A stretch of DNA of 64,000 bases, from positions 4,109,588-4,173,587 of the forward strand of contig NZ_CP062788.1 of assembly GCF_025136295.1 (NCBI RefSeq). Direction: 5' to 3'. The translations under genes and the position numbers were made by a program. Source of the DNA: Aestuariispira ectoiniformans (GTDB lineage: Bacteria; Pseudomonadota; Alphaproteobacteria; UBA8366; Aestuariispiraceae). Shown here piece by piece: positions 30,190 through 57,969 of the stretch (position 1 is its first letter; every line of letters begins with the position of its first letter). The notes beneath the pieces are model-generated. The model was not told where the DNA came from and did no database searches. It saw only the letters and a list, made by a program, of their open reading frames with translations.

Positions 30190-31044
30190 ATGAAAGGCCT
30201 GTGCAAGCTCTTGAAGCGGCGTCGCACCATGGTATGGAAATCGGCCTGTTCATTGCCGGTTCTCCTCTCTGCCTTCCTGTCGGTTGCGGCTTCGGCCTCC
30301 CCTTTGAATAAGGAAATCATTTTTGCCTATCCCCCTCAGGGATACCCGCCCTATATCATCACCGCAGACGGCGACGGCGCCCCCACCGGTATTGTTGCAG
30401 ACGCCTTTTCGCAGATTTCACGGGAGACCGGCTACAAGGTTGTCTTTCGCCAATATCCCGACCGGCGCGCGCAAATCCTGCTACAGCGTGGCAAGATCGA
30501 CGCCATCGCCTTTGCCCGTGAGTGGGTCCAGTCGCCCGACAACTATCGTTGGACAAAGCCCCTCCTGAAAGTGGCCGACCATCTGATCTTCGATGCCCAC
30601 AGGGTGATCAAACACGCCGACATCCAAAGCCTGCGCGGCAAGATGATCGGCACCATGGTTGCCTTCATCTACCCCAGCTTTGAAAACGCCTTTAATACCC
30701 AGGCAATCACACGAACAGATGCACCGGCGTTCAGGAACCTGTTCCTGATGCTTAAGTCCGGACGCGTCGATGCCGTCCTTCTGGATGAGCGTGTGGCCGG
30801 GTGGTATATCGCACAGTCTCCGGACCTTCGGCCAGACGACTTCGCCATCCGCAAACCCGGATTTGACGCTGTCGGCTATCGCATCATGATGCCAACCCTC
30901 ACTCCGTTGGGCTGGGAGGGTTTCATTGAGAAATACGATAAGAAGCTGGATCAGTGGAAATCCAATGGCCATCTGCAGGCCCTCATCAGCCGCTACGCAA
31001 TCAAGCTCAAGCAGGCTACCCGCGACGGTGAAGACGGCTCTTAA
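30190..31044 (+). CDS. periplasmic solute-binding protein, family 3 type
   Basis: The 284-residue product has an N-terminal export signal (basic LCKLLKRRRTMVWK, hydrophobic PVLLSAFLSVAA, likely cleavage after ASA) and a mature domain of the amino-acid binding SBP_bac_3 kind. Recognisable phrases are GAPTGIVADAFSQISRETGY, LLQRGKIDAIAFAREW and LRGKMIGTMVAFIYPSFENA. No permease or ATPase genes are next to it, so it may be an orphan receptor-like protein of the kind common in alphaproteobacteria. ATG 30190 follows GGGGGATTT at good spacing; ATG 30229 is an alternative that still leaves a signal peptide. Its 3' end overlaps the convergent FecR/RTX gene by 4 bp. Confidence 0.82.
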   Translation: MKGLCKLLKRRRTMVWKSACSLPVLLSAFLSVAASASPLNKEIIFAYPPQGYPPYIITADGDGAPTGIVADAFSQISRETGYKVVFRQYPDRRAQILLQRGKIDAIAFAREWVQSPDNYRWTKPLLKVADHLIFDAHRVIKHADIQSLRGKMIGTMVAFIYPSFENAFNTQAITRTDAPAFRNLFLMLKSGRVDAVLLDERVAGWYIAQSPDLRPDDFAIRKPGFDAVGYRIMMPTLTPLGWEGFIEKYDKKLDQWKSNGHLQALISRYAIKLKQATRDGEDGS

Positions 31045-33305
31045 GACGCGTCGGGATGCACCTCGGCCATGATCTGGATTGCGTGACCGTCCCAGTTGAT
31101 CGCACCATCAGCCGGTAGATCGCCCGGATTTCTGCCGTCGATCTGGAGGCTATCACCACCATCGTCATGATGCTGGACCGTCAAAGTGTGTTGCGTCTGA
31201 CTGCCATCATTATCATTAAACACAACCGTCAAAGTGTTATTGTCGTCGGTCATATCCACGACATCGGCAAGACTTAACGAGGCGTTCAACGGCCCCTCAA
31301 TACCAGTCATATCAAGAACTTCGACATTGTGCAGGCCCTGATAACCGCCATCCTCAAGGGTAACCGAGTCACCACTGTGAGAAACAACGCGGACCGTGTC
31401 CATGCCCTGCCCACCATCCACGCCGGATGTATCGAAATTGCTCAACTTGAGGCTTGAATCCGCGCCCAATGCATCATTGACGACGGCGCTGTAATCCTGG
31501 TGACTGCCTAGCTCGCCTCCCGTCAGGGCTGTCGCTGCAATCTGCATGATGTCGTTCCCACGGCCACCCAGCAACAGGTCATCCCCACCGTTACCGACCA
31601 AGGTATCATCACCATTCCCACCGACCAGAACGTCCGTGCCAGCCGTACCTTCGAATACGTCTGTCCCATTCCCTCCCAGCCTCAGATTGACCTGGTTGAG
31701 ATCATAAACCTCGTCACCGACGGAAACCTGCAGGTCTTCCACATCGCTGATATTGAGATTCAGCGCCGAGATATTCAAATCGGTCGCACTGCCGTCATGC
31801 AGGGCATTATAGGCGTCTCTCAATTCACCCAATGCGCTTACCCATTGATCCGACGAACCGTCAAGGTGGATTTTCAGCAGGTCATCACCCCCGCCGCCCT
31901 CAACACTGGTTGAGGTGGAAAGGTCATCGCCCTGCGAGAACGATACCGACAGGATATCATTCCCTTCCGTGCCCGAAATCGTCACGCCCCCGTCGGACCC
32001 ACCCGAACCTGGATCTGGGTCAGGGGCTGGAGCAGGATCTGGGGCAGTGTCAGATGTGGTGCCAGTGACATCCTGCTGAGCGTTGTTGTTGTCGCCTGCG
32101 CCGACCGTGCCACTCTGGTCGCCTGCCGGGGAACCGGTCGCTCCGTCGTCACCCGGGAGTGTATCGACACCATCATCCGCACCCGTGCCGGTATCTGCCG
32201 CCGCACCGGCCACGGTCTGGTCAAACTGGTCCAGGAAGGCCTGGTTCCCTACCCCCGCGTCGGCCCCGGCGGGCCCTGATGCCGCGTCCACGCCGCCGCC
32301 ATCGCCTGATGGTGCGTCGTTCTGACCGTGATTGCTGTGATTCAATTCACTGGGGTCGATATGCGGTTGCGGTGGATGCAAATCCAACGCGCGGCCATAA
32401 GTGTCATGCTGTCCGCCCGGGTCCAGGGAGAAGACATCCGACGGCGATGACAGGGAACTTGCCACCTGGGTGGAATCCCCGAAGGCCGCCAGAAGGGAAA
32501 CGCCATAACTGTTGCCAACGGTCACCGCACCCTCAAAAAGGGTAACAGTGGTCTCACCACCCACGGCGGCAACATCGACACCGTATTTCGTGCCGCGGAT
32601 ACCGATTGTGGCAACCGGCGTCGAGACGGAAACGCTGTCCGGGTCGTTCTTGCCGATGACGCCACTGGCAAAAACAAAAGCACCGCGAACGATGTTAAAG
32701 CTTTGCGCGCCAAGATGGGTCGACGGGTCATAGACCATGTCGTCGAGGATAATGCGCCCGTCCTCGCCCATGGACATGGTGCTCTTGTCAACGAAGACGA
32801 TACCCAAGGCGCCGTCGGAACCGGTTTCAAGAATGTCATCGGCAAAAACCGGGTCACCGTTTTGCAAGGTCTCCCGCGTTCCGTCCGCATGAATGGCAGT
32901 CGCTGCCCCTTCAAGCCCTTCGATCGTGCCGATCGGCTGTCCCAGGACATCCGCGTCGCCTGCCTGCGCATATTGACCGGGCGCCAAAGGCCCCGCCATG
33001 CGTGTCGCCATGGCAGCGGTAATCACCGCGCCGCCTTCGGTCATGAGATCCGGTGCGATATCGCCAAGGAAGTAATCTTGAAGATGAACCTCGTCCCCGC
33101 CAGGCCCGGTCAGGACAAGGTCATGGCCAACACGGCTGTATTCCGCATCCAGGATAAGAGTGCCATGAGGCACGATGACGGTTTCCGCCCCGTCCACGAC
33201 AATCTGTGTGGCGGCAGGCTGAGCGTCAAAATCCCCATCGGAAAGCTGTCTTGCAGGCATTCCCGATTGTCCTGTCTCTCCGCCCTGGTTTTGCGGCGTT
33301 GCCAT
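31041..33305 (-). CDS. FecR-domain protein with RTX calcium-binding repeats
   Basis: The 754-residue product, from ATG 33305, is acidic and has no N-terminal signal peptide. Residues about 140-290 form a FecR-type domain (DDILETGSDGALGIVFVDKS, STPVATIGIRGTKYGVDV, TVTLFEGAV). A low-complexity Gly/Asp/Ala/Pro linker follows (residues 310-460). The C-terminal third holds haemolysin-type nonapeptide repeats (GGNGDDTLVGNGGDDLL, GGRGND) and similar beta-rich modules. This layout is found in large RTX adhesins and surface proteins secreted by type I systems, where no classical signal is needed. No type I secretion genes are in the window. A longer reading frame upstream to 33437 is unlikely to be translated. 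Confidence 0.8.
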   Translation of the reverse strand: MATPQNQGGETGQSGMPARQLSDGDFDAQPAATQIVVDGAETVIVPHGTLILDAEYSRVGHDLVLTGPGGDEVHLQDYFLGDIAPDLMTEGGAVITAAMATRMAGPLAPGQYAQAGDADVLGQPIGTIEGLEGAATAIHADGTRETLQNGDPVFADDILETGSDGALGIVFVDKSTMSMGEDGRIILDDMVYDPSTHLGAQSFNIVRGAFVFASGVIGKNDPDSVSVSTPVATIGIRGTKYGVDVAAVGGETTVTLFEGAVTVGNSYGVSLLAAFGDSTQVASSLSSPSDVFSLDPGGQHDTYGRALDLHPPQPHIDPSELNHSNHGQNDAPSGDGGGVDAASGPAGADAGVGNQAFLDQFDQTVAGAAADTGTGADDGVDTLPGDDGATGSPAGDQSGTVGAGDNNNAQQDVTGTTSDTAPDPAPAPDPDPGSGGSDGGVTISGTEGNDILSVSFSQGDDLSTSTSVEGGGGDDLLKIHLDGSSDQWVSALGELRDAYNALHDGSATDLNISALNLNISDVEDLQVSVGDEVYDLNQVNLRLGGNGTDVFEGTAGTDVLVGGNGDDTLVGNGGDDLLLGGRGNDIMQIAATALTGGELGSHQDYSAVVNDALGADSSLKLSNFDTSGVDGGQGMDTVRVVSHSGDSVTLEDGGYQGLHNVEVLDMTGIEGPLNASLSLADVVDMTDDNNTLTVVFNDNDGSQTQHTLTVQHHDDGGDSLQIDGRNPGDLPADGAINWDGHAIQIMAEVHPDAS

Positions 33306-33605
33306 CCTGTGCCCCTTATTCCCCCCCGGGTTATGCCCCCGGAAATTCAGAGATATTATCGCAGAAAATCCCGGCATTGCCCATTGGTTTATGCCCAATG
33401 TCACGCCGGTTTTACAGGCTTCGCAGCAAAACCACACCGGGCTACCGCAAGGCTTGCGCTGTTATAGGGCAGCCTCACGATTTCCCCAAGCATAAATAAC
33501 GCTTCCCCACCCAGACACCCCTCGCGTTTCTCCTTGATTTAGCGGTACAAACCGGCAAATTTAGCGCAGCAGACATCCCAAACCAAAGGGGCGAGTGAAG
33601 ATACT
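33306..33605. other. intergenic region, FecR/RTX gene and yciI-like gene
   Basis: This 300-bp divergent gap holds the upstream regions of two genes. An AAGGGG-like Shine-Dalgarno site precedes the minus-strand ATG at 33305, and GAGTGAAG precedes the plus-strand ATG at 33606. Nothing else was recognised. Confidence 0.4.
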
Positions 33606-33991: not shown

Positions 33992-34068
33992 GCACCCATA
34001 GCTCAGCTGGATAGAGCGCTGCCCTCCGAAGGCAGAGGTCAGAGGTTCGAATCCTCTTGGGTGCGCCA
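33992..34068 (+). tRNA. tRNA-Arg(CCG)
   Basis: The acceptor GCACCCA (33992-33998) pairs with TGGGTGC (34058-34064), followed by discriminator G and an encoded CCA. The anticodon stem CTGCC/GGCAG encloses CTCCGAA, giving anticodon CCG, which reads CGG. The T arm is AGAGG TTCGAAT CCTCT. The 3' end abuts an accessory region, a common place for integrated elements. Confidence 0.96.
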
Positions 34069-34540: not shown

Positions 34541-36067
34541 TTGAGAGGCAAGAAGCTAGTTGCCCTGGTTGCATCCACGGCACTGATTTCTGGTTGTGTA
34601 ACCACCGGACATGATTCCGGCCCCATGAAATCGGAAAATGCCTGTGAGTATGACACAACCACCTATATTGCGGCCGGCGCAGTCGCCGGCGCCGTACTCG
34701 GCCTGATTATTGGAGGCAAAAAGAACCGTGCCGCAGGAGCTTTAATCGGAACAGCCGTCGGCGGCATCGCAGGAAAGGCAACACAAAGCTATCTCGAATC
34801 TAGGTGCAGGCGCCTGGCTGAAGCGAAGAAACAGCTGAAGGTCGCTACAGTAGAGACAGAGCAGATTCAGGTTCCTCGACTGGACCATGCCCCAGAAGGC
34901 AATATGCAAGGTACCGGGCAGGAAGTCGAAACCAGCCCTGCTATCAAGCTGAATATCTCTATCGAAAGTATGTTTGCCAGCGGCAGTTCCTCCCTGAGCC
35001 GTGAAGCACGCGAGGACTTCAGAACCCTGGCAAAAACCTTCGCAGATACCGACCGAAAGGTTCTGATCGTCGGCCACACGGATTCAACCGGTGACGACAG
35101 GACGAACCAGCAGCTGTCAGAGGAACGCGCGAAGACTGTCGCCCTCCTATTTCAGGAAGAAGGCATTCCGGTCCATTCCCTTTATTTCAAGGGCGCAGGC
35201 GCAAGCCAGCCTGTTGCCAGCAATGACACAGTCGAAGGGCGTGCCAAAAATCGTCGTGTCGAAGTCATCGAACTCGAAGACGAAGCGAGCGTCCTGACCT
35301 ACGCCCAACTCTCAACGTCGAACCCCGAAAGCCTGCCCTTGTCCGCTCCGCCCCGTAGTGATGTCGCTGAGAAAGACAACGAAAACAGCAAGCAAACAAA
35401 ACCGTCGTCTCAACCGCCCACATTTGCCAAGGCGCTGCGCCAAGACCACTCCCTTGATTTCGGCGGGAAACCAGTGGACCAAACCGGCGCAGACATAGCC
35501 TCTCTCGTTGGTGCGGAGAAAGACAGTGGGGGCTTATTGGGCAATGTTTCGATCTTCTCGAAGGCCTTTGCAAGTGACGACCTCTCCGAAAATCCCCTGC
35601 TAACCACCAGCTGCATTGCTGATAGTTATCGAGAGCAAGGTGAGGTCAAATCGTTATCAACCGGGACGTCGACAAGACGGTCTATCGGTGACTATGCACC
35701 CGGCCTCTACTCGACATCCTGGTCTGAAAAGCTGAATAGCCACTTGGTTGCCATGACGCATGTCGCCGTGTCGCGTGACGGCGACACGGACCCTGGCACA
35801 CCGGACGTGTTCGTTTTCGCCAATTTCAAGCCGGGCCAGGAAAAACCGACCATCGAGGCAGTTGGGAAGCCCCGAACTTACATGGGAGAGGCAGGTATCC
35901 TTTACCGCGTCTTCATGAGTAAAGAAGCTTGGCCTATTCGCTGTATTGACCTGGTTTTCGATCAAAAATCACCAGAGAAGGCAGCCTACGGGCGCCTCTA
36001 TTACGACAAGGACGGTAAGGTTTACGCCGCCTCCTATATGCCCACCCTCGTCCGTTCGGGCAGTTGA
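34541..36067 (+). CDS. OmpA-family lipoprotein
   Basis: The 508-residue product starts at TTG 34541 and has a lipoprotein signal ending LISGC (C19), so it should be lipid-anchored in the outer membrane or envelope. A glycine-zipper segment follows (AAGAVAGAVLGLIIGGKKNR, GALIGTAVGGIAG). Residues about 135-245 are an OmpA/MotB-type peptidoglycan-binding domain (FASGSSSLSREAREDFRTLA, VLIVGHTDSTGDDRTNQQLS, RAKNRRVEVIE). The rest (residues 250-508) is a linker and a domain I do not recognise. It is the first gene of a three-gene cluster with a five-helix membrane protein and an exported VWA-like protein, separated by 22 bp and then overlapping. Together they could span the envelope. Confidence 0.85.
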   Translation: MRGKKLVALVASTALISGCVTTGHDSGPMKSENACEYDTTTYIAAGAVAGAVLGLIIGGKKNRAAGALIGTAVGGIAGKATQSYLESRCRRLAEAKKQLKVATVETEQIQVPRLDHAPEGNMQGTGQEVETSPAIKLNISIESMFASGSSSLSREAREDFRTLAKTFADTDRKVLIVGHTDSTGDDRTNQQLSEERAKTVALLFQEEGIPVHSLYFKGAGASQPVASNDTVEGRAKNRRVEVIELEDEASVLTYAQLSTSNPESLPLSAPPRSDVAEKDNENSKQTKPSSQPPTFAKALRQDHSLDFGGKPVDQTGADIASLVGAEKDSGGLLGNVSIFSKAFASDDLSENPLLTTSCIADSYREQGEVKSLSTGTSTRRSIGDYAPGLYSTSWSEKLNSHLVAMTHVAVSRDGDTDPGTPDVFVFANFKPGQEKPTIEAVGKPRTYMGEAGILYRVFMSKEAWPIRCIDLVFDQKSPEKAAYGRLYYDKDGKVYAASYMPTLVRSGS

Positions 36068-36089
36068 TTTTTTCAAGAGAGATTTCGAG

Positions 36090-37640
36090 ATGGATTCTAT
36101 CATTGATTTTCTGGATGCCTACCGCGCCATCATTGGTGCCGTGGTCGTAACGCTGCTTGCAACAGTCATCATCATCAAATGGTGGGACGAGGTAAAACTT
36201 TTTTGGAAGAGCGTCGGCTACGGCCTTCCGCTGATCGGCAAGGTCAGCCGCCTTTCAAAAGACACAGCACGCGATAGCTCGGGATGGTTCCAGTCAGAGA
36301 AGGCCCTGTGTCATTCCTTCTATTCCGACATCAAAAAAATTGCCGCTGATCCTCAGATGTTTGACCGTGCCACCAGTTATCTGGGCAAAGTACAAGAGCG
36401 TGGTCGTAACGAACTCAGCCTCTTCATGTGGGTCGTCATCGTCGCCCTGGTCTTCGTGGAAGCCCTCGGCTTTGCCTATGTGCTGTCGGGTTATACACTG
36501 CCGGGTGCCAGCGAAAAAATGCAGGTGCAGGGCGCCTTCGGCATCGCATTTCTAATTTCCTGTGTACTTGTCTGGCTCACCCACAGTGCCGGTTCTGAAT
36601 TCCATAAGCGCAGCTTAATCAAAAAGGCCCGCACCTGGTGGCAGCACGATCAGTCGCCGGAGCGGCCGAATTTGATTGGTGCCCGAAATGACGTGTCTCT
36701 CGAGAATGACCATTTTGATGACGGCATGCCGAGCTATCTACAAATCGTTCACCGTCTGGACACCAATGCCCGCGTAACACCTGGTTTCCCAATTTGGTCT
36801 ACCATCGCTTTCGCGGCCATCGCATTTGTTGCGATTGGGGCAACTGTTGTTCGGTATGAAACCTATAAGCAGGAACGTGTAGCAGAATCCACGCTGGGAT
36901 CCGTTTCGACATCTGAGGGCGGTTTTTCCCTTGAAAACCTGATGGGGAATTCGGAACTGCCTTCCGCGATAACGGAGCCTCAAGCAGAAGCAGACAAAGC
37001 CGCGGAAGATGAAAGTGCTGGTTCTCGGGATACGGCCAACTTTACCACCTACGCAATTCTGGCGGTTCTGTTCGTCCTTATTCAGGTCATGGGTATTGGT
37101 ATCGGCTATCGCACCGGATTTGCCGGGCGAGAATCGAAGAAGGCTCGAGGCATCATTCAGGACTTCAACAGCCGGGCGGAATATGAAACCTGGTACGAGC
37201 GCAAGAGAGATGCCATCGCGCGCATTGCACAAAAGCATTTGTCAGCCCTGCAAAGCAAACTGGCCCAATATGCACAGGAAATGAGTATTGATCGTGAAGA
37301 TCGCAATATTCTGCACTCTGCTGCGGACCGGACTTTCCCGGTTCATTATGAGAACCAGTTGAAGGAAGAAGAGCGTCTCCGTCGCACCAGTGAGGCCATC
37401 ACCAGCGAACGAAAACGAACCGTGACACCAACGGCTTCCGCGGTCGACGCAATGGCCACAAATGAGAACATTCGTACGAAGGCTGAGCCCCCCGACACAA
37501 GAACAGAAACGCCGGAAGAGATGGAAGCCCGCCTCCGTGCGGAGCTAATGGCGGAAGCCACCAGAGCGGCGGAGCCCAAAGAAACCGAAGAGCAGATGCG
37601 TGAACGGCTGCGCAGAGAAATGGGGATTTCCGACAATTGA
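36090..37640 (+). CDS. five-helix membrane protein with charged C-terminal tail
   Basis: From ATG 36090 the product is 516 residues. Hydrophobic helices lie near residues 8-30 (AIIGAVVVTLLATVIIIKWW), 112-135 (WVVIVALVFVEALGFAYVL), 145-165 (GAFGIAFLISCVLVWLTHS), 230-250 (IWSTIAFAAIAFVAIGATVV) and 320-340 (YAILAVLFVLIQVMGIGIGY). The last 170 residues are strongly charged and probably cytoplasmic and coiled (KEEERLRRTSEAITSERKR, EEMEARLRAELMAEATRAAE). I do not recognise the family, and it lacks the helix layout of MotA/ExbB proteins. It sits between an OmpA-type lipoprotein and a VWA-like exported protein, with a TGATG overlap to the latter, so it is probably the inner-membrane part of their complex. 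Confidence 0.72.
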   Translation: MDSIIDFLDAYRAIIGAVVVTLLATVIIIKWWDEVKLFWKSVGYGLPLIGKVSRLSKDTARDSSGWFQSEKALCHSFYSDIKKIAADPQMFDRATSYLGKVQERGRNELSLFMWVVIVALVFVEALGFAYVLSGYTLPGASEKMQVQGAFGIAFLISCVLVWLTHSAGSEFHKRSLIKKARTWWQHDQSPERPNLIGARNDVSLENDHFDDGMPSYLQIVHRLDTNARVTPGFPIWSTIAFAAIAFVAIGATVVRYETYKQERVAESTLGSVSTSEGGFSLENLMGNSELPSAITEPQAEADKAAEDESAGSRDTANFTTYAILAVLFVLIQVMGIGIGYRTGFAGRESKKARGIIQDFNSRAEYETWYERKRDAIARIAQKHLSALQSKLAQYAQEMSIDREDRNILHSAADRTFPVHYENQLKEEERLRRTSEAITSERKRTVTPTASAVDAMATNENIRTKAEPPDTRTETPEEMEARLRAELMAEATRAAEPKETEEQMRERLRREMGISDN

Positions 37641-38500
37641 TGGCGACAATGACAGAAATACTTCGGAAGCTGTGCCTGCCCCTTGCTCTGGTTACGCTCG
37701 CAACCGGCCTTTCGGCTCACGCCGTTGCCGCGACAAAAGAGATCGGCAGCTGTTACAACGCCGTCAAACTCAACGACATGGCCGCCCCGGCACTGAAGCG
37801 GGAAATCTATGTGGTGGTGGACCAAACCGTCGAGTTTGATTTGCCGTTGCAGGAGCAGGCCTATCAAAAGCTCATGAAATTCCTACGCCCTGGCGACCGC
37901 GTGGTTCTTGTTAGTTTTTCGGCCTATGCCAAAGGCCGATATACCCAAGTCCTTTTTGATGGAACGCTGGATACAAGGCTTGACGACGAACAGCGCTATG
38001 ACGTTCCCAAAAAAATCCTAAAAGTTCTGGACCATTGTTTCAGTGTTCAGGATCAGGGCGTGCGTCAACTCACGGGGAAAACGCTTATTGAGATATTCAA
38101 AGGCGCTCGCAGCGACCTACCCAATACCGAGATCATTCAAACCCTGCGCCTGGTCGCAAATCAACTCATGTCCAAGCCCAAAGCGCCACAGCAATATCTC
38201 TTCATCATCTCCGATATGCTGGAACACTCAGAAGTGACGTCGTTTTACAGCCATGGGTCGGTGCGACACCTTGATCCCCAGGCTGAACTGGAAAAAGTGA
38301 AAAAACTGGGGCCTCTTGGAGACAGTTACAACGACACCAAAGTCTACGTCTTGGGTGCCGCCTATTCTCTGAAAGGCACCTATCGCTCATCCGTAGAAAT
38401 GAAATCCGTCCGGGCATTCTGGCAAGCGTATTTCGATGCATCTGGCGGTCATCTGATCGAGTTTGGTATGCCGGCGCTGTTGGGGGAGATTGGGGAGTGA
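37640..38500 (+). CDS. exported VWA-like protein
   Basis: From ATG 37640, whose first base is the last base of the preceding TGA, the product is 286 residues. It has a signal peptide (KLCLPLALVTLATGLSAHAVAA). The mature part resembles a von Willebrand A fold: strand EIYVVVDQTVEF, GDRVVLVSFSAYAKG, a threonine in QLTGKTLIEIFKGA, QQYLFIISDMLEHSEV and KVYVLGAAYSLKG. The metal-site motif, normally DxSxS, is altered to DQTVE. Being exported, it would act in the periplasm with the OmpA-type lipoprotein. The function is unknown. Confidence 0.68.
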   Translation: MATMTEILRKLCLPLALVTLATGLSAHAVAATKEIGSCYNAVKLNDMAAPALKREIYVVVDQTVEFDLPLQEQAYQKLMKFLRPGDRVVLVSFSAYAKGRYTQVLFDGTLDTRLDDEQRYDVPKKILKVLDHCFSVQDQGVRQLTGKTLIEIFKGARSDLPNTEIIQTLRLVANQLMSKPKAPQQYLFIISDMLEHSEVTSFYSHGSVRHLDPQAELEKVKKLGPLGDSYNDTKVYVLGAAYSLKGTYRSSVEMKSVRAFWQAYFDASGGHLIEFGMPALLGEIGE

Positions 38501-38582: not shown

Positions 38583-39641
38583 TTAGGATGCTTCGTAGCT
38601 CATCGCAATGAGTGCGGATACATTTTCGATATCTTTCTTCGACTTGATTGTGATTTCCAAGTCGCCGGTGCCGAAATGCCCGATTTGGCGCACGTCACGC
38701 ATCATCATTGGATCCATGTCAACGGTGTCGGGATCAAGGTTCAAGTAAACGCGCACAACACGTTTTTGATTGTATATTTGGACTGACGCAAAGTTCCGGT
38801 TTCGCCGAAATGCCATATAATGCTTCTGTGGGTGAATAGTTACATCGTCGCCTAATGCCCGAAGCGTCCCAGCAAGTTTGTCATAGACTGCCCGCAAGTC
38901 CTTTGGTGCAGCCTCGATTTTGTCCTTTACCGTGACAACTGGCTTCCCAGCCTTCACTTTCACGCTACCGCCTCGGCTCGGAACAGCTTCTTCCAGCTCT
39001 TCAGCCAGTTTCGGCAATACAAGAAGCCGATGTATCAGCCCTTCAACCGTGTCCAGTATGACGGCGATTTGCTCTTTCGTTGGTGCCCAACCGCGATGGG
39101 CAGCGGCGTTACCCGCATCGACTACGGGATTCAAGATTTCTCGTTCGTGTTGAGACAGCATGCCGCCGTCCTGCAAGGCTTGTAGACCTTTCTGGAAATT
39201 ACCCTTGTCACCAACAGTCAACACAATCAAGCGATCTATCAACGTCCGCGAACCGAACGTTGCGAGATAATGAGAGCCGGTTTGAAGGGAATTATAGATT
39301 TCGTCTGAAATCTCACGAAGAGTAGGGTCTGGAAGGTCTTCAAACCACGCTGGCGGATTGCGGTAGGTGACGGGCGGATAGATTACCTCGTCCCATTTTC
39401 CCTGGTTGTCAGATTCGCCTTTATACGGTTTATCAAAATATTCAACATCTTCCGAAAACAGCGTCATCTTGACAAGTTCAAGATTCTCGCAACCACAGCA
39501 TTCAATTATCAGCATGCGTTGCTTAAACCAAACCATCTGATTGTCGTCGTCATCATGCTTGTTGTATTCGCCGCGAACAAAATGCTTGGTCTTCTGCTTA
39601 CAGGCATTGCAGAAAAACCATTCAATTCGCTCTTCAGTCAT
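38583..39641 (-). CDS. DUF4145-DUF5655 protein with N-terminal zinc ribbon
   Basis: The 352-residue protein has an N-terminal zinc ribbon (CNACKQKTKH near 11-20 and CCGCE near 48-52), a central DUF4145-like helical domain (residues about 115-215) and a C-terminal DUF5655-like domain (YDKLAGTLRALGDDVTIHPQ, VQIYNQKRVVRVYLNL, IKSKKDIENVSALI). DUF4145 is related to HEPN domains; the place of the RNxxxH motif reads DAGNAAAHRGW, so Arg is Gly177 while N178 and H182 remain. That suggests an inactive or structural HEPN. It is the last gene of a six-gene operon headed by hsdR, coupled by a 4-bp ATGA overlap to the HNH gene. Both DUFs are found in defence-gene neighbourhoods. Confidence 0.75.
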   Translation of the reverse strand: MTEERIEWFFCNACKQKTKHFVRGEYNKHDDDDNQMVWFKQRMLIIECCGCENLELVKMTLFSEDVEYFDKPYKGESDNQGKWDEVIYPPVTYRNPPAWFEDLPDPTLREISDEIYNSLQTGSHYLATFGSRTLIDRLIVLTVGDKGNFQKGLQALQDGGMLSQHEREILNPVVDAGNAAAHRGWAPTKEQIAVILDTVEGLIHRLLVLPKLAEELEEAVPSRGGSVKVKAGKPVVTVKDKIEAAPKDLRAVYDKLAGTLRALGDDVTIHPQKHYMAFRRNRNFASVQIYNQKRVVRVYLNLDPDTVDMDPMMMRDVRQIGHFGTGDLEITIKSKKDIENVSALIAMSYEAS

Positions 39642-40483
39642 GACTTTTCCTCTGACTGCTTTTCGTCGTATAGAGCAAAATTCAGCTCCATGACGAATTC
39701 GTCAGGGTCATCGCCGGACACCTCGCAAAAATCCAAAATTTCTATCCAAGGGTTTCCACCCGGTTTTCGATCCCAAAGACTAACTATATATTTTCCCGGA
39801 ATGTGATCTTCATCGATGCTGCCCAGACAATGATCTTCGATAAGTTCCATATTGCTCTTAAGCTTGGCGTGAGAGATCCTGAATACGGAAATCACCTCTT
39901 GGACGGGAAGCCCCCCCAGATCTCTCCGCTTCATCCTCTCCGCGATGCGCAGTGCAAAACGTCGTTGATTTAATGGAAGCTCAGATAATTTCTCAACGAA
40001 TTGCCTAACCCCATCTACTTCTTCTTTCGCCGTACATATTTCTTCAATTTTAAGCGCTTTGGAGAGACGCTTAAGGTTATTGGGCATCTTGGGCATAGTT
40101 TGTTGAGTGAGATCTGCGTATTCCTCTAGAAACTGCAACTCTGCCTTGCGAAACCGTTCTTCGTGTTGCTTTTTGTAACGCTTTAGCAGTTCGGCTGGGA
40201 ACTTATCTTCATTCGCTTTATCGTCGATCACATCGTGGCAGTTTGCACAGACAACAAATAGGTTCTCTATTGCGCGACGATCTTCGTTGCTCATGTTCTC
40301 TTCAAATCGAGCGCCACCCTTTTCTGCTGCATAAATATGCGCGACCTTTCCAATCATTGTCCCTAACTCATGAACCAGTGGATTGTTGCAGCCTGGCATT
40401 GCGCACAAGTTTCCGCTATGCGCAAAAAGCTTTTTAAGAACGCTTGTTGTTGGCGTGAGACGTTGAACTTCTTCCTTACTCAT
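39638..40483 (-). CDS. HNH endonuclease-domain protein
   Basis: From ATG 40483 the product is 281 residues. The N-terminal 90 residues form an HNH nuclease: C28 and C32 (LCAMPGCNN), H49 (KVAHIYA), N74 (AIENLFVVC), and C79, C82, H83 (CANCHDVID). The remainder is helical and charged, then ends with a domain (YIVSLWDRKPGGNPWIEIL) I do not recognise. The ATG lies 8 bp inside the upstream HEPN/zinc-ribbon gene, and the stop overlaps the next gene by 4 bp, so it is translated as part of the type I restriction operon. An upstream in-frame start at 40549 would lie deep within the previous gene and is less likely. Confidence 0.82.
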   Translation of the reverse strand: MSKEEVQRLTPTTSVLKKLFAHSGNLCAMPGCNNPLVHELGTMIGKVAHIYAAEKGGARFEENMSNEDRRAIENLFVVCANCHDVIDDKANEDKFPAELLKRYKKQHEERFRKAELQFLEEYADLTQQTMPKMPNNLKRLSKALKIEEICTAKEEVDGVRQFVEKLSELPLNQRRFALRIAERMKRRDLGGLPVQEVISVFRISHAKLKSNMELIEDHCLGSIDEDHIPGKYIVSLWDRKPGGNPWIEILDFCEVSGDDPDEFVMELNFALYDEKQSEEKS

Positions 40484-41570
40484 CTCGTGTCCACCCTGCT
40501 TTTCCTTCGCACTTTTCGCAGCCCGACCAGTAGGTACCTTCTGCTTCACCGGTGAATGGCTCGCTGCACCACTCGCAATATTCGATTTTTCCAGGCCAAC
40601 TAAAACAGTTAAAACAAAATACTATCTCGCCATTATCAAGCGTGCCCGCCGTTTCAGGAATGTGCCCACACTCGGTGCAAAATGCGGGTTGATTGGGTTC
40701 GTCGTGCCTCGCTTTACCTTCAATCGTGTATTCAAAAAGTACGTCGTCTAAATCAATTGACGAGCCACAGTGCTCGCACGTCCACTGCTCGCATTCTTCC
40801 AGCGACAGTAGGGTTTTCTCTTTGCAATCTTCGTCAGGGCAGATATGCAGTAGGAAGCTTTCTTCAGCGAGGCAAACCCGGCATTCGTGCTCTTGTGGGC
40901 CGATTTCGTCAAGCACTTGGGCCTCAAAGCCGCAGGCACTGCAAGTTGCCAAAATCGCACCATCTTGACGAGCAGCCTCTAGTTCTGGTCGGATTTGGTC
41001 GTAGACGGTAGTAAGGTACTCGCGATGGCGCTTCATCGCTAAGTTGATTTCTGCCACTTGATGCTGAAAATCGGCAAATACTTCTTGCCATTCGTCGCCA
41101 AGTAGGCGGCGCAGGTAGAACCACCCCCGACATTGCTCCAAGATAACAACTTCTTTTTGTTTCTCTTGGTCCGGCTCGTTTGCATTGATGGGATGGTGGA
41201 AATGCACCATCCTGTTTCTATGCTTTCTTAGTTCATCGAATGAATTGAAAGCATTGGGAGAAACAGCAACCTTGGCCACCTTTTTTAACCGTTGAACAGC
41301 CTGCTTCAAGCCAACAGTGTGAGCTTCGCCGTTCAGGAATTCATCAATGTCCGCTTTATTGGGGTCGACTACGATTAGTGTCCAGTGTTCGTGCATCAGG
41401 CGCGCTTTTACAAGAAGTTCAACGCCAGAGTAGAAATTTATAACGGAGTATTTCAGTGTGTCCGGCGAGACATTTTCCCAAAGCTGCTCGATAGCTCTTG
41501 TGACGAAGCCAAAGCCATTTTCGCATAGGTGTGTGAATTGCTCATCGTGGGTCAGTATCCTTCTAACCAT
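40476..41570 (-). CDS. HEPN-motif protein with C-terminal zinc ribbons
   Basis: The 364-residue protein has an N-terminal helical domain (residues 1-180) containing DELRKHRNRMVHFHH, where R118, N119 and H123 make a complete RNxxxH HEPN ribonuclease signature. The C-terminal half is a string of zinc ribbons with CxxC pairs (CSACG, CRVC, CEHCG, CTECG, CFNC, CEWC, CEKC). This pairing of a HEPN domain with nucleic-acid-binding zinc ribbons fits an RNA-cleaving effector or a toxin; that role is inferred. Its ATG at 41570 directly follows the hsdS stop codon with no bases between (TAGATG), so the restriction operon translates it. Confidence 0.75.
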   Translation of the reverse strand: MVRRILTHDEQFTHLCENGFGFVTRAIEQLWENVSPDTLKYSVINFYSGVELLVKARLMHEHWTLIVVDPNKADIDEFLNGEAHTVGLKQAVQRLKKVAKVAVSPNAFNSFDELRKHRNRMVHFHHPINANEPDQEKQKEVVILEQCRGWFYLRRLLGDEWQEVFADFQHQVAEINLAMKRHREYLTTVYDQIRPELEAARQDGAILATCSACGFEAQVLDEIGPQEHECRVCLAEESFLLHICPDEDCKEKTLLSLEECEQWTCEHCGSSIDLDDVLFEYTIEGKARHDEPNQPAFCTECGHIPETAGTLDNGEIVFCFNCFSWPGKIEYCEWCSEPFTGEAEGTYWSGCEKCEGKAGWTRDE

Positions 41571-43361
41571 CTACTCACCGGCGTTCACAAACAAAGTTTC
41601 GAGCTCGACCATCGCGTTTTGGATCGAGGCTTCGGTGAGGCGTAGCTTTTCGATCTTAGGGCGCCACTCATCGTCGGCTTCGATGTAGGAAAGGACCGCT
41701 GCTGGAGTTGGGCGTGTGCCCTCGTGATCGAGCGCCAGTATGGCATAGTCTATGGTCGCAAGCATCTCCCATATGTCGTTGGACTTGTATTTGAAACGGT
41801 CGCGAACCCACGCGGCGGTAGGCGCGAACTTATAGCGTTCTATCCACTCATCCATTTCTGCGGCGGTGTCGCCCGGCGCGTTGCCTTCTCCAAATTTTCC
41901 GGTCGCCCGTTTGACCCAATTCTTCTCCGTGGCAATCTTGATGCCACCGGAATAGCGCATAGTGGGATTATAGGGGCCTGCGGCCTTCCTCAGGTAATTT
42001 TTGTCGAGCACGCGCTCTCCCATATGGCGACGCGCGAAATAAACTGCTTTTTGAAGTCTGAAGTTACCTATCGGCTGGCCGTTGTCTTCCTGGAACGCTC
42101 TAATGATAGCCCCAACAAGCACCGCTTCCTTGAATGACGTGTCGATAACTGTGTCCTGTGTGGTGGGAATTTGGATAACGTTTGCTTCTGATGTCACGGG
42201 AGCAGAGTGAGATGTATTCGCTCGCCGTTCGAAAATCTCATGCAACATCGCGGGAATAAGGGCTTGTGTGTCTTTAGCAGTCGCGGCCCTAATGGCACGC
42301 ACCTGTTCGACTTGAGCACATAGCTCTACAAATCGCCGCTGAACGTCAATATCGGGGACAGGAACGTGAATTTTCTCCGCCTTCTTGATCCCCAATGTCC
42401 GGTTCCGCCCGGCCCCACCGGGCGAGGCTTCACCAACCTTTTGTAGCCCTTCTGGAGTGAGAAGATAGAACCGCAGGAACTCCGCCAAGGCGAGTTCGTT
42501 CTTGGGAACGCAAGTCAAAAAGCGATGCGATCCGACGCGACCATGATCTTCAGCTCCAGGGACTGCGATTGCGCCCTCCCATGCGAACACGATGTTAAAA
42601 AGCAAATCACCTTTGTGAATTTCGAATAGGCGCTTGTTGCCCACATCGGCACCAGTAAGCGTTGGTTTGTGAAAAGTACCCTTGCCGAAAGAACGCACAC
42701 CTAGCTCTGGGTATTCCCCATCAAGAAGGACTTCGACGGGGCGCCGCACGAGCGGTGCTACTTCGGAAAGCGGTCGGTACTTTACACCGTCGATGATTTC
42801 TTGGAACGCGTTGAACAGCATAGCGTTGGCTTCGCGTTCGACCACCTCTAATTCGGCTTCTCGTTCCCTCAGTTTCGCTTGCACTTCGTCTAGCCTACAA
42901 ACAAGATCTCGCTGTTCATCGAGTGGTGGAATAGGTATTGAGACGTTGAGAAACGCTTGTGGCTTTAGTCTGTTTTGTCCACTCGTCCCGCGAGAAAGTT
43001 TGTCACATTGCTCCCAAAGCAAATGTGACTTGGTGAACCAATAGAAAAATCTAGGAAGCAACGCAGTTTGATCTATCACATAGAGAGGAAATTCCGGCGA
43101 AACAAAGCAACCGTGCAATTCCTTACTAACTACACTTACACTGCCATTTCGCGCCCAAATCTTATTGACGATAATATCGTCCTCCTTGAGCCGAGACAAA
43201 GCGCTGTAACGGGTTTCAGCACCTGTTATGGTATCACGCTCGTATGCTCCTGCTCCCCACAGACGGACCCCAACTTGTCGATACTTCTTCGTCGGCTCTA
43301 CTGGCTCTGAACGTTTAGCCAGACACGCTAACGAAGATAATTTCACTGTATTCCAGGCCAC
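41571..43361 (-). CDS. hsdS: type I restriction specificity subunit HsdS with extra C-terminal domain
   Basis: HsdS gives sequence specificity to the HsdR-HsdM complex. Residues 1-185 and 190-395 are two target-recognition halves, each ending in a coiled helix (IPIPPLDEQRDLVCRLDEVQ, then VPDIDVQRRFVELCAQVEQV). A typical HsdS would end near residue 410. Here about 185 more residues follow, containing IGNFRLQKAVYFARRHMG and AAGPYNPTMRYSGGIK, which resemble the start of DUF4065/Panacea-type domains known from antitoxins. The start is GTG 43361, sharing its first base with the hsdM stop (TAGTG). The fused domain sits directly before the HEPN gene, so it might control that protein. Confidence 0.85.
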   Translation of the reverse strand: MAWNTVKLSSLACLAKRSEPVEPTKKYRQVGVRLWGAGAYERDTITGAETRYSALSRLKEDDIIVNKIWARNGSVSVVSKELHGCFVSPEFPLYVIDQTALLPRFFYWFTKSHLLWEQCDKLSRGTSGQNRLKPQAFLNVSIPIPPLDEQRDLVCRLDEVQAKLREREAELEVVEREANAMLFNAFQEIIDGVKYRPLSEVAPLVRRPVEVLLDGEYPELGVRSFGKGTFHKPTLTGADVGNKRLFEIHKGDLLFNIVFAWEGAIAVPGAEDHGRVGSHRFLTCVPKNELALAEFLRFYLLTPEGLQKVGEASPGGAGRNRTLGIKKAEKIHVPVPDIDVQRRFVELCAQVEQVRAIRAATAKDTQALIPAMLHEIFERRANTSHSAPVTSEANVIQIPTTQDTVIDTSFKEAVLVGAIIRAFQEDNGQPIGNFRLQKAVYFARRHMGERVLDKNYLRKAAGPYNPTMRYSGGIKIATEKNWVKRATGKFGEGNAPGDTAAEMDEWIERYKFAPTAAWVRDRFKYKSNDIWEMLATIDYAILALDHEGTRPTPAAVLSYIEADDEWRPKIEKLRLTEASIQNAMVELETLFVNAGE

Positions 43362-44914
43362 TATGCCATCTCCGACAGAGTGCGCTTAATATCGTCCATG
43401 ATTGCAAGAATGCGTTGTTCCTTGGCATCAATGCTTTCGACGATTTCAAGTGGGGTGCGATGATCAACAGTGCCACCCGCATTAGGGTTCTTCAGGTCAA
43501 GATTGCAGTCAACAACACGCCCCGTTTCGTCGGTCTTGATGAGGTCCGGCCCGTGCACTTTCCACGCCTGTTCATTTTCCTCCCTAGTATACCACCAATT
43601 GAGGCAGGGCTTCAGTTCGTCAAAGGTCAACGGAACGGTTTTCGAATATTTCTTACGTCCTTCCGGTTTGGGCTGTTCGTAAAACCAGATATCATCGGTT
43701 ACCTTCGTCGTATCGAAGAAAATGATGTTCGCGGGAATATCCGTGTAGGGCGCAAAAACGCCTTCGGGCAGGCGAAGGACGGTGTGAAGATTGAATTCCT
43801 TCAGCAAGTCCGCCTTGATGCGTGCTGCGATACCACCACCAAACAACACGCCATGAGGGACAACGACGGCAGCGCGGCCTTTACCCCCTCGTTTTACACG
43901 CCGCATGATGAGTTGCAGGAACAGCAAGGCCGTTTCCGACGTACGCCGGTCTTCCGGGAAATTGTTCAGGATGCCGGTTTCTTCCTCCCCACCAAAGGGA
44001 GGGTTGGTCAGAATAACCTCTACACGGTCGGCTTCGCCAATTTCCGACAGGCGAATCTTCAACGAATTGTCCGGCGTTATTTTGGGCGCTTCCAACCCAT
44101 GCAGCAGGAGGTTCATCTGCACGAGAAGGAAGGGAAGTGGCTTTGCTTCGCCGCCATAAATGCTCGACGATTGGAGTATTTTGCGCTTTTCGACTGTATC
44201 GGCTTGTCTGGCCATATGCTCGTAGGCTTCGGTCAAGAATCCGCCAGTGCCGCAAGCCGGGTCGAGAACCGCCTCGCCAAGCTGCGGATTGGTCACCTCG
44301 ACCATGAAACGCACGATGGGACGTGGTGTATAGAACTCACCGGAATCCCCCGCCGCATCGCGCATTTCACGCAGCAGGGTTTCATAGAGCCGACCAAGTG
44401 TGTGAATTTCGTCTGAGGAATCGAAATGGATACCGTCAATGAGATTAATGACGTCACGCAGCAGGTAACCGCTTTCCATACGGTTTGACAGACCTCGGAA
44501 AACGGTTGCGATGACGTCTTTACGCCCGCGAGTGCCATTGTTGCCGCGAAGATTTCGTAGATAGGCGAACAGGCCCGGACCTTTGTTCCCATCCGGGCGG
44601 TCAGCCTCGTCCAAGGTCAGAAAATCGATTAGATCAGGACCGGTGATACCGCCTTCTTCGGCTGCCCAATCGCGCCAACGATAAGGCGCTTCGATGGCTC
44701 CGTGATATGTTTTACCCGCGACTTCCGCACGTTCTTCCTCAATATGCTCCATGTCGTCCAAGAATTTCAGGAACATAATCCAGGTGAGCATCGGCAGGCG
44801 GTCGAGATCGCCACTCAGTCCCTTGTCTTTACGCATAATTTTGCGCGCCGACTTGATTATACTGTCAAGGCGTTGGGCGGTCGTTTGTGGTTTCTTTTTT
44901 GGTTGGCGTGCCAA
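43361..44914 (-). CDS. hsdM: type I restriction-modification methyltransferase HsdM
   Basis: HsdM methylates adenine at N6 in the site chosen by HsdS. The 517-residue product has the N-terminal HsdM helical domain (LDRLPMLTWIMFLKFLDDME) and the methyltransferase motifs DPACGTGGFL (SAM binding) and NPPFGG (catalytic N-P-P-F). It also has the family phrase GEFYTPRPIVRFMV. The start is TTG 44914. It lies 15 bp downstream of hsdR and overlaps hsdS by one base, so R, M and S are one operon. Confidence 0.96.
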   Translation of the reverse strand: MARQPKKKPQTTAQRLDSIIKSARKIMRKDKGLSGDLDRLPMLTWIMFLKFLDDMEHIEEERAEVAGKTYHGAIEAPYRWRDWAAEEGGITGPDLIDFLTLDEADRPDGNKGPGLFAYLRNLRGNNGTRGRKDVIATVFRGLSNRMESGYLLRDVINLIDGIHFDSSDEIHTLGRLYETLLREMRDAAGDSGEFYTPRPIVRFMVEVTNPQLGEAVLDPACGTGGFLTEAYEHMARQADTVEKRKILQSSSIYGGEAKPLPFLLVQMNLLLHGLEAPKITPDNSLKIRLSEIGEADRVEVILTNPPFGGEEETGILNNFPEDRRTSETALLFLQLIMRRVKRGGKGRAAVVVPHGVLFGGGIAARIKADLLKEFNLHTVLRLPEGVFAPYTDIPANIIFFDTTKVTDDIWFYEQPKPEGRKKYSKTVPLTFDELKPCLNWWYTREENEQAWKVHGPDLIKTDETGRVVDCNLDLKNPNAGGTVDHRTPLEIVESIDAKEQRILAIMDDIKRTLSEMA

Positions 44915-44929
44915 GGCTATATCTCTTTC

Positions 44930-47308
44930 TTATGCACTATAAAGACGCTTCTGCAACTCGTTGACGGCTTCCCGCATGGCCTTGCCGCCGCCAAAGCGTG
45001 CAGCGATTTCCACGACGTTTCCCCAATCATTAAAAGGTGGAATTTCAAGCACGTCTGGCAGCTTGAATTGCGCGGTTCCATGGTCCGCATATTTCTCAAT
45101 GAGAGCATTGAGCACTTCGCGGGCCTTCTCTCCATGCTTCTCGAAGAAGGCCGACTCTTCGCGCTTCAACCTTTCAGCACGCTCACGCCGCGTGCGTAGG
45201 GGGGCGTTATAGGCGAGGTGGCAAAGCAGGTCAAAAGGATCGGCGTCGGGCTTGCCTACATCCACACCGAGTGTTTGCGTGTCAATGCCCTTGTCTTCAA
45301 GCTGTTCAATAATGTCGGCACGACGCGTAGGATCCAGCCAGTCATTCCTTAGTTCGGAAGCATTCGGATAGAGCGTACGCACCTTTTCGCCAGTATAGTC
45401 TGTCAGTTGGCGAACGATGAGCTGTTTGCCCTCGGAATCGAGTTCATAGACCAAATGGCCGATTATTTCGACGCTGCCGCCGTCATAATAGAACTTTCGT
45501 GGCAAGTCCGGTTCCGTGTCGTCAGATAGGCCGCCATCCAGATCGTCTATTGCGGTCGTATCGGTATCGCCAGGGGTGTCGGTCTCTTCGGTGATTTCCG
45601 TTTCGTCGACAACATCACCGTCTTCGTCGATAACCTGTTCACGCTCCCCAACCGGATCACCATCAAAGGCCGGATCGGCAAATTTTTCTGTGGCGGTGCC
45701 AGTATAATCGATGATGTTAAAAGCCAGCTTGCCGTAGTCGGGGCGCAGGCGTGTTCCGCGCCCGATTATCTGCTTGAATTCTGGCATTGAGCCAACGACC
45801 CGCGCCAGTACTACATTCTTGCATGTGGGAGCATCGACACCCGTCGTCAGCATTTGTGAGGTTGTTAGGATGACGGGCGTAGACTTTTCAATATCCTGAA
45901 ATTTGGCACGGTGCGCAGAACCGATGTCTCCTTCGTCGGAAGTTACGCGGCATACATAGTCGGGGTATTGTTTCACTAGGTCCGAGTTGATACGCGCGAG
46001 CGCATTACGCATCTCAAGGGCATGTTCTTGATTGACACAGAAGACGATGGTTTTCGCAAAACGATCTGTTTGCTTAAGGAAGGTTGTCAAATGCGCCGCA
46101 AACGCTTCGGTTCTAGCCCGCAGGGCAACGACGCGTTCGAAATCTCGGGTCCCATACTGAGCGTCTGGTATTTCGCGTCCGTAGCGGTCGAGTTCCCCTT
46201 GAGATGGCCGCCAACCCACCGCATCGAAATCTGAAATCACACGGTGCACGCGGTAGGGTGCTAAAAAGCCATCGGCGATGCCTTGGGCAAGACTATATTC
46301 GTAGACCGGATCACCGAAGTAGTTGTAGGTGTCGGCATTGTCCTCGCGCCTTGGCGTGGCCGTCATGCCAATCTGATAGGCCGGTTCGAACCATTCCAGA
46401 ATTTCTCGCCAATTGCTGTCGTCGCGCGCACTACCACGGTGACATTCATCGACAATAATGAGGTCAAAAAAGTCCTTCGCATATTCTTTGAAGAGGCCAT
46501 CGCGGGACTCGTCACCTGCAATAGCCTGGTAGATTGCGAAATAGATATCGCGACCCTTGCTGATTTCACCGCCGGAAATTTTGAAGCGGGCATCACCAAA
46601 GGCGCTAAAGTCTTTGTCTTTAGGATCGTCCACCAGAACATTTCGGTCCGCTAAGAAAAGAATTTTTGGCTTTCGGTTTTTGCCCTTTGGGTTCCAACCG
46701 CCGTTCCATAGCTTCCAGCAGATTTGAAACGCAACAGCCGTTTTGCCTGCACCGGTACAAAGGGTTAGCAAAACGCGCCTGCGTTGCTGAAGGATCGACT
46801 GGACCGCACGATTAACCGCAATTTCCTGGTAGTAGCGAAGCGGTTTGTCCTTGTCGGGAAAGGTCGGAGAAAGGAGGTGTTCTTTGATATCGTTGTCTAA
46901 GTTTTCGGATTGGGAAAGACGCCCCCAAAGCTCTTCAGGCGATGGAAAAGTGGTTAGGTCGCGTTCAATACCGGTGGTGTAGTCGACCTCGATAATTTCC
47001 CGGCCATTGGTAGCATAGGCGAATTTCAGACCAAGAATCTCCGCGTATTCCTTAGCCTGCTGTAGGCCATTTGCAGCGTGTTTGTATTTGGATTTCGCTT
47101 CAACCACCGCAATGGGGAAGTCTGACCGATAGCGCAGTATGAAGTCGGCGCGCTTTTGTCGTCCCCGACGCGCTTTCCCACCCACGAACACGATTCGTCC
47201 ATCGGTAAAGGACCGTTGCTCGTTGATTGCGTACGGCGGATTATCCCATCCAGCTTCAACGAGCTTCGGTATCACCTCTTTTCGACATGTATCTGCCTCA
47301 GTATCCAA
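44930..47308 (-). CDS. hsdR: type I restriction endonuclease subunit HsdR
   Basis: HsdR translocates and cuts unmodified DNA. The 792-residue product is of the shorter EcoEI/EcoAI-like class. It has a PD-(D/E)XK nuclease (ADFILRYRSDFPIAVVEAKS), a superfamily 2 helicase with CTGAGKT, VDECHRG, MTATPRR and GRGTRLRPD, and the C-terminal EcoEI_R_C domain (EIPPFNDWGNVVEIAARFGG). An acidic linker rich in Asp/Glu/Thr runs near residues 560-600. The start is TTG 47308 behind a GGGGGGAG ribosome binding site. It heads the six-gene operon that also contains the HEPN, HNH and DUF4145 genes. Confidence 0.96.
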   Translation of the reverse strand: MDTEADTCRKEVIPKLVEAGWDNPPYAINEQRSFTDGRIVFVGGKARRGRQKRADFILRYRSDFPIAVVEAKSKYKHAANGLQQAKEYAEILGLKFAYATNGREIIEVDYTTGIERDLTTFPSPEELWGRLSQSENLDNDIKEHLLSPTFPDKDKPLRYYQEIAVNRAVQSILQQRRRVLLTLCTGAGKTAVAFQICWKLWNGGWNPKGKNRKPKILFLADRNVLVDDPKDKDFSAFGDARFKISGGEISKGRDIYFAIYQAIAGDESRDGLFKEYAKDFFDLIIVDECHRGSARDDSNWREILEWFEPAYQIGMTATPRREDNADTYNYFGDPVYEYSLAQGIADGFLAPYRVHRVISDFDAVGWRPSQGELDRYGREIPDAQYGTRDFERVVALRARTEAFAAHLTTFLKQTDRFAKTIVFCVNQEHALEMRNALARINSDLVKQYPDYVCRVTSDEGDIGSAHRAKFQDIEKSTPVILTTSQMLTTGVDAPTCKNVVLARVVGSMPEFKQIIGRGTRLRPDYGKLAFNIIDYTGTATEKFADPAFDGDPVGEREQVIDEDGDVVDETEITEETDTPGDTDTTAIDDLDGGLSDDTEPDLPRKFYYDGGSVEIIGHLVYELDSEGKQLIVRQLTDYTGEKVRTLYPNASELRNDWLDPTRRADIIEQLEDKGIDTQTLGVDVGKPDADPFDLLCHLAYNAPLRTRRERAERLKREESAFFEKHGEKAREVLNALIEKYADHGTAQFKLPDVLEIPPFNDWGNVVEIAARFGGGKAMREAVNELQKRLYSA

Positions 47309-48828: not shown

Positions 48829-48898
48829 ACCAATATCGCGTCTTTGCCGCTGGCGGGATACCCGCCCCTAACTCCCTAACACAATTCGCGCGCCTTTG

Positions 48899-48921
48899 GT
48901 GGCCGCAGAGCCTGCGGCCAC
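48899..48921. repeat. 10-bp-stem hairpin upstream of the AAA+ gene
   Basis: GTGGCCGCAG and CTGCGGCCAC pair perfectly around a three-base AGC loop. There is no T-run, so it is not a standard terminator. It lies between the nuclease-like gene and the AAA+ gene and might shape mRNA stability or translation. Confidence 0.55.
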
Positions 48922-48958
48922 TGACGCTCCCTCTATGTCTAATTCCCCGAGGATCGCC

Positions 48959-57769: not shown

Positions 57770-57969
57770 AGATAATCTGACAACCGATCCTGCTGCCAGT
57801 CACGATCGACGGATGGCGTCTCCTTCGCACTGACACCTCTGCATCATATAAATCAACCATCTCAGGGCCGAGCATTTCGACCAAGGGCTCAGCGTCCGCA
57901 AACTCCGGGCCGCCGTCGAGAGTGCGATTGCGGCTGTCACCCCATTGTCCACGCCGGTGCGGCACTAGC
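57770..57969 (+). pseudogene. decayed copy of the AAA+ ATPase 3' end
   Basis: Bases 57888-57947 match 50341-50400 of the intact AAA+ gene almost base for base (encoding GLSARKLRAAVESAIAAVTP), ending in a stop at 57967-57969. Upstream, 57866-57887 still resembles the EHFE region, fused by an internal deletion. About 57780-57830 is a weaker match to the sensor 1 region. No open frame remains. It lies in front of a second copy of the small acidic gene, in the same order as at 48959-50764. Confidence 0.75.

Follow-up and report, generated by a model that had tools for sequence, protein, structure and literature searches.

A three-gene cluster of Aestuariispira ectoiniformans encoding a candidate trans-envelope system

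The three genes and their products

Three genes lie head to tail on the forward strand between positions 34541 and 38500 of a 64,000-nucleotide stretch of the Aestuariispira ectoiniformans genome (the window). The first (34541..36067) begins with a TTG codon at position 34541, behind the Shine-Dalgarno-like stretch GAGGGG, and encodes a lipoprotein of 508 amino acids. The second (36090..37640; 516 amino acids) is separated from it by 22 bp, starts with an ATG at 36090 and specifies an inner-membrane protein with five transmembrane (TM) helices. The ATG of the third gene (37640..38500; 286 amino acids) is at 37640, within the TGATG that contains the stop codon of gene 2 (37638-37640), so that the two reading frames overlap by one base; its product carries a signal peptide and resembles VWA proteins. 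An initial annotation, made from the sequence alone, had described precisely this arrangement, and the present analysis upheld its three protein assignments. The genes form an operon, and the architecture of the trio is well supported.

The lipoprotein has the lipobox ISGC with the lipidated cysteine at position 19; this cysteine is found in 48 of 49 homologue rows, the other having a gap. It is followed by glycine-zipper helices (about 39-98) and an OmpA-type peptidoglycan-binding domain (about 131-247; Pfam OmpA, 8e-21). The closest structural models for the latter are the periplasmic domains of PomB, PA0833, YiaD and YfiB (Z 16-19, up to 19.1), and YfiB is also its best match among PDB sequences. 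Within the fold, D181 and R196, at the positions known for diaminopimelate binding in OmpA domains, are invariant (49/49); the protein thus combines the fold with the expected Asp/Arg pair. A disordered linker leads from the OmpA domain to a private, β-rich C-terminal domain (about 300-508) with two invariant cysteines, C358 and C468. The fold-match lists are filled by OmpA domains and do not cover this C-terminal part. In E. coli, under the Lol rule, a residue other than Asp at position +2 points to the outer membrane. Because Asp is almost never found at this position among the homologues, the lipoprotein is probably located there.

Gene 2 encodes hydrophobic segments at about 12-30, 111-136, 142-166, 235-258 and 312-338, and a long, charged, mostly helical coiled tail. 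The charge pattern suggests an N-out/C-in topology, which would place the tail in the cytoplasm. All 60 homologues, together with a divergent set of nine members, share three polar residues that are predicted to be buried in the membrane: E124 (mid-TM2), R255 (TM4) and Q332 (TM5). At position 165, in TM3, each of the 60 has either His or Glu. Strict conservation extends to P47, G50, W66, E70, D210 and R222, all predicted to be cytoplasmic. The invariant Glu-Arg-Gln set points to a core that either switches conformation or is sensitive to ions. No significant family was identified in Pfam, NCBIfam, PADLOC or PDB sequences, nor did the protein contain a GGDEF or other known domain. Its AlphaFold model is confident (mean predicted local distance difference test score 86.9), with long helices projecting beyond the membrane. 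The model had no significant fold match in the PDB (best Foldseek E value 0.6) and none among viral folds; VIA Z scores of up to 7.0 were to unrelated helical proteins and are not meaningful. The tail sequence varies across the family, and the tail of the Aliarcobacter homologue (L003:9908-11515) carries zinc ribbons.

The product of gene 3 has no significant Pfam match (best 0.14), and its relationship to VWA proteins emerged from profile-profile comparison. A 43-row profile aligned over most of its length with 31 VWA-family sequences at a score of 38.3 (P 7e-5), against no more than 21.6 in 30 column-shuffled controls and 16.7 for the reversed profile. The alignment follows the full-length register of the Rossmann-like VWA fold. 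D61, T63, D192 and E195 are invariant, as are C38 and C133. The D61-x-T63 pair and D192 fall on positions of the metal-ion-dependent adhesion site (MIDAS), whose complete form reads DxSxS...T...D; the third coordinating position (65) is variable, so that the metal site is only partial. C38 and C133 probably form a disulfide.

Co-inheritance of the trio

Profile searches of 398 Pseudomonadota genomes, in which strong matches were counted and a few weak single matches set aside, strongly linked the three genes to one another. Separate searches with the membrane protein and the VWA-like protein returned the same nine genomes; the C-terminal domain of the lipoprotein was found in eight of these and nowhere else. 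None of the three parts occurred without the others in this sample, and the frequency of the trio is about 2% of the sampled proteobacterial species.

A total of about 90 loci were collected from Alpha-, Beta- and Gammaproteobacteria and Campylobacterota (80 of them by protein searches of a species-wide collection), with a nearly constant gene order and gaps near zero. Among 86 complete loci, the lipoprotein and membrane-protein genes are 0-60 bp apart in 77, and the VWA-like gene lies at most 60 bp from the membrane-protein gene, or overlaps it, in 85; in three of four Vibrionaceae loci the lipoprotein gene comes last. Large plasmids from Pantoea, Paraburkholderia, Caballeronia, Acidiphilium and Aliarcobacter carry the genes in the order seen in the window, as does a record from Aeromonas caviae. 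In one metagenome-assembled genome (L077:9459-10001), an internal deletion or a misassembly seems to have joined the beginning of the lipoprotein to the last part of the membrane protein. Recurrence of the same trio in some 90 loci goes far beyond chance. Pairwise distances between lipoproteins correlate with those between the VWA-like proteins (r=0.96), and the tree of the membrane and VWA-like proteins largely tracks bacterial class. The three genes are therefore inherited together as an obligate unit, which does not in itself prove contact between their products.

Comparison with described systems

The initial annotation had likened the cluster to Zorya while noting that the membrane protein is not MotA-like. 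The second point was borne out by sequence and profile: MotA_ExbB was absent from the Pfam matches listed for 60 family members, and for the window's own protein, and hhalign returned a probability of about 0.1-0.2% against MotA/ExbB, compared to 99.7% for an ExbB/MotA positive control. A MotA chain superimposed on the AlphaFold model with a Z score of 5.1 and a root-mean-square deviation of 11.2, within noise. As to the first point, Zorya is defined by ZorA, a membrane protein of the MotA/ExbB family, by ZorB, which has a single N-terminal TM helix with a critical Asp followed by an OmpA domain, and by the accessory partners ZorC/D, ZorE or ZorF/G (PMC11890865). What the trio shares with ZorA-ZorB is an OmpA-type domain that binds peptidoglycan and, in the membrane protein, a long extension into the cytoplasm. 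A single member of 60 gave a weak match to ZorA2 (0.0012). The ZorB3 model matches the lipoprotein (2.1e-14) over the OmpA domain only; where ZorB has its Asp-bearing TM helix, the trio has a lipobox signal followed by a glycine zipper. Moreover, the trio includes an exported VWA-like protein, which Zorya lacks. Library scans detected no ZorC-E or ZorF/G system within the window, and among the 118 nearest neighbours of related trios ZorD models recognized one protein, likely an SNF2-type helicase. Zorya was thus rejected, having neither a MotA/ExbB relation, nor a MotB-type TM helix with Asp, nor Zor partners to support it. Pfam and profile comparisons led to the rejection of other stator-type systems as well.

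The nearest system in layout is YfiBNR, a tripartite cyclic di-GMP signalling system of P. aeruginosa (PMC4655355), in which an OmpA-like outer-membrane lipoprotein, a small periplasmic protein and an inner-membrane protein are likewise encoded together. The trio has the OmpA lipoprotein, whose outer-membrane location is predicted from the +2 residue. It differs in that its membrane protein has five TM helices and no YfiN-type diguanylate cyclase, its periplasmic protein is VWA-like, with no YfiR-type Pfam match or other sign of YfiR, and its lipoprotein bears the private C-terminal domain. Like Tol-Pal, MotAB and PomAB, it connects an OmpA domain bound to peptidoglycan with an inner-membrane machine and has a buried acidic residue. 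Here, however, this residue sits in the multi-TM protein itself; there is no profile relation to TolQ or MotA and no single-TM partner of the TolR/MotB type. Finally, YiaD, PA1041 and PA0833 have a similar architecture of N-terminal lipobox, glycine zipper and OmpA domain, but the lipoprotein scores below the NCBIfam cut-offs for YiaD (150 of 175 bits) and PA1041 (111 of 250) and adds about 260 residues to the YiaD/PA1041/PA0833 plan, including the domain seen nowhere but with the trio. Literature searches, which left out most subscription journals, turned up no description of the trio. By membership, it fits no described system.

Possible role and genomic setting

The initial annotation had proposed that the three products link cytoplasm, inner membrane and peptidoglycan, and this proposal gains from the data above: they are inherited as one unit, expected to extend from outer membrane and peptidoglycan into the cytoplasm. 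The most likely role, which we put forward tentatively and at somewhat less than an even chance, is that of an accessory trans-envelope system of three partners that senses or braces envelope integrity. The lipoprotein, probably sorted to the outer membrane, would hold the peptidoglycan through its OmpA domain and project its C-terminal domain into the periplasm. The VWA-like protein would act as a periplasmic adaptor, probably stabilized by its disulfide, and bind the lipoprotein, a periplasmic loop of the membrane protein, or both, perhaps via the degenerate metal site. The five-TM protein would receive the state of the envelope, with Glu124, R255 and Q332 as its likely conformational or ion-sensitive core, and pass it to the cytoplasm through the coiled tail. 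What is sensed or braced would most likely be the spacing or tension between outer membrane, peptidoglycan and inner membrane, much as in YfiBNR or Tol-Pal, although the trio belongs to neither. The direction of signalling, like the physical complex itself, is something we infer.

In several lineages, same-strand genes located a short way downstream of the trio belong to membrane or envelope families. MscS genes lie 41-170 bp downstream in eight related Pseudomonas loci; LemA is found at 34 and 67 bp in two lineages, LpxR at 59 bp and, in a second lineage, at 940 bp, and genes for a TM2 protein with a zinc ribbon, a DUF6232 protein and a SHOCT protein at 57, 93 and 29 bp, respectively. Loci with such downstream genes are L082, L083, L077, L049, L065, L067-L069, L071, L075, L092, L028, L033, L032 and L029. 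Three observations weigh against a sensing or bracing role. These downstream genes differ from one lineage to another, and part of their count comes from a single Pseudomonas clade; since the identity of the neighbours changes and closely related loci are counted repeatedly, guilt by association has only modest force. The cytoplasmic tail of the membrane protein contains no known effector domain. And the neighbours are defence-like in the window as well as in its close relatives G002 (HNH, DUF4435) and L030 (KAP NTPase).

This last observation bears on the second explanation in rank, a Zorya-like anti-phage system in which a complex anchored in the envelope would detect the entry of a phage and, by a signal through the cytoplasmic tail, halt the infection. 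We consider this unlikely. The initial annotation had placed the cluster after a tRNA, beside a restriction island and in a defence-like setting. For the window itself, this description is accurate. The G+C content is 0.48-0.54 over about 33-48 kb, compared to 0.55-0.60 in the flanks, which marks the surroundings of the trio in this genome as an island. A tRNA-Arg (CCG) gene (33992..34068, forward strand) is found just upstream of the island's edge and ends 472 bp before the lipoprotein start; searches found neither a further copy of its 3' end in the window nor, in relatives, an empty syntenic site. Downstream, a convergent restriction island, separate from the trio (38583..47308, reverse strand), was delineated by family-library matches and encodes a DUF4145/DUF5655 protein, an HNH-type protein, a DUF3644 protein and HsdS, HsdM and HsdR, the last three making up a complete type I restriction-modification (RM) system (41571-47308). 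The three small genes between this system and the trio (38583-41570, reverse strand) match the defence-candidate models PDC-S18, HNH effectors and HEC-08/DUF3644; the HNH-type protein (39638-40549) is recognized by CBASS and PDC effector models rather than by ZorE. Besides the low-GC island with its type I RM system and other PADLOC candidates, patchy presence in about 2% of species and the plasmid copies speak for an anti-phage role, as do the neighbours in close relatives. The loci closest to the window's own trio carry KAP NTPase, DUF4435 and HNH genes next to it, unlike most loci (L030:3363-6587; L029:341-1432 and 6066-7505).

The association does not extend to the family at large. Most trio loci lie among ordinary chromosomal genes in lineage-bound synteny, and the only recurrent neighbours reflect such synteny or are varied membrane genes. 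No PADLOC family was listed for more than 2 of the 118 nearest-neighbour proteins, and distant controls from the same loci reached the same level (2/110), a comparison that is coarse because counts are per family, among the first 25 families listed, and not per protein. Relatives of the window's RM genes occur near only one other trio locus (L091) and are distant (25-27% identity). A defence island was thus rejected, on this coarse test, as the general setting. The initial annotation had named homologues mostly in conserved housekeeping positions, away from defence genes, as what would refute its idea, and most of this was observed, the window and a few relatives being the exceptions. In addition, the unit includes no effector gene, and its class-following tree looks unlike that of a fast-moving arms-race gene. 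The trio had no matches in phages or IMG/VR, which says little either way about defence; with no viral fold match either, a viral or phage origin was rejected. On balance, the trio more likely monitors or braces the envelope than fights phages. Given the HNH, DUF4435 and KAP NTPase neighbours of G002 and L030, the branch to which the window belongs may nonetheless have a role in defence.

Two further genes lie near the island. Immediately upstream, a large acidic protein (31041-33437, reverse strand) appears by eye to have a FecR-like N-terminal and a calcium-repeat-like C-terminal region. On the other side, an AAA protein (48896-50425) whose ATPase domain is Lon-like has its last 32 residues repeated, at 72% identity, about 7.5 kb downstream (about 57867-57962), perhaps as a partial duplication.

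Third in rank, and less probable still than phage defence, is an energy-coupled trans-envelope machine independent of the TolQ/ExbB/MotA lineage: ion flow via Glu124 would drive or gate the VWA-like adaptor and, through it, move the wall-bound lipoprotein, as in the Tol, Ton and Mot motors but with different parts. The invariant mid-membrane acid accompanied by invariant R255 and Q332 and the conserved H/E165 would suit such a force transducer, as would the model's long extramembrane helices and the PomB-like OmpA anchor. However, apart from the single weak ZorA2 match, no relation to MotA, ExbB or TolQ was seen by sequence or profile, no single-TM partner of the MotB/TolR/ExbD type is encoded, and the Glu could instead pair structurally with the Arg. 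A slightly smaller chance attaches to a passive tether that, under particular circumstances, would do no more than staple the wall and the two membranes to one another, with no signalling. An OmpA lipoprotein, an adaptor and an anchor would be enough for this, and a tail that has no signalling domain, varies in sequence and bears zinc ribbons in Aliarcobacter would agree with it, but the strict conservation of buried polar and predicted cytoplasmic residues exceeds the needs of a staple. An export, assembly or surface-decoration pathway with its substrate encoded elsewhere is improbable: the Paraburkholderia plasmid copy adjoins two-partner secretion genes and exported VWA-like proteins often bind ligands, but no substrate, chaperone or ATPase gene recurs next to the trio.

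Very few known systems span the whole envelope and connect the cytoplasm with inner membrane, peptidoglycan and outer membrane: Tol-Pal, Ton, Mot, Zorya, YfiBNR and the secretion machines. The trio would be an addition in which the membrane protein, the adaptor and the C-terminal domain of the lipoprotein all fall outside the family libraries searched, and its carriers include such common groups as Pseudomonas, Aeromonas, Pectobacterium, Pantoea and Burkholderiales.

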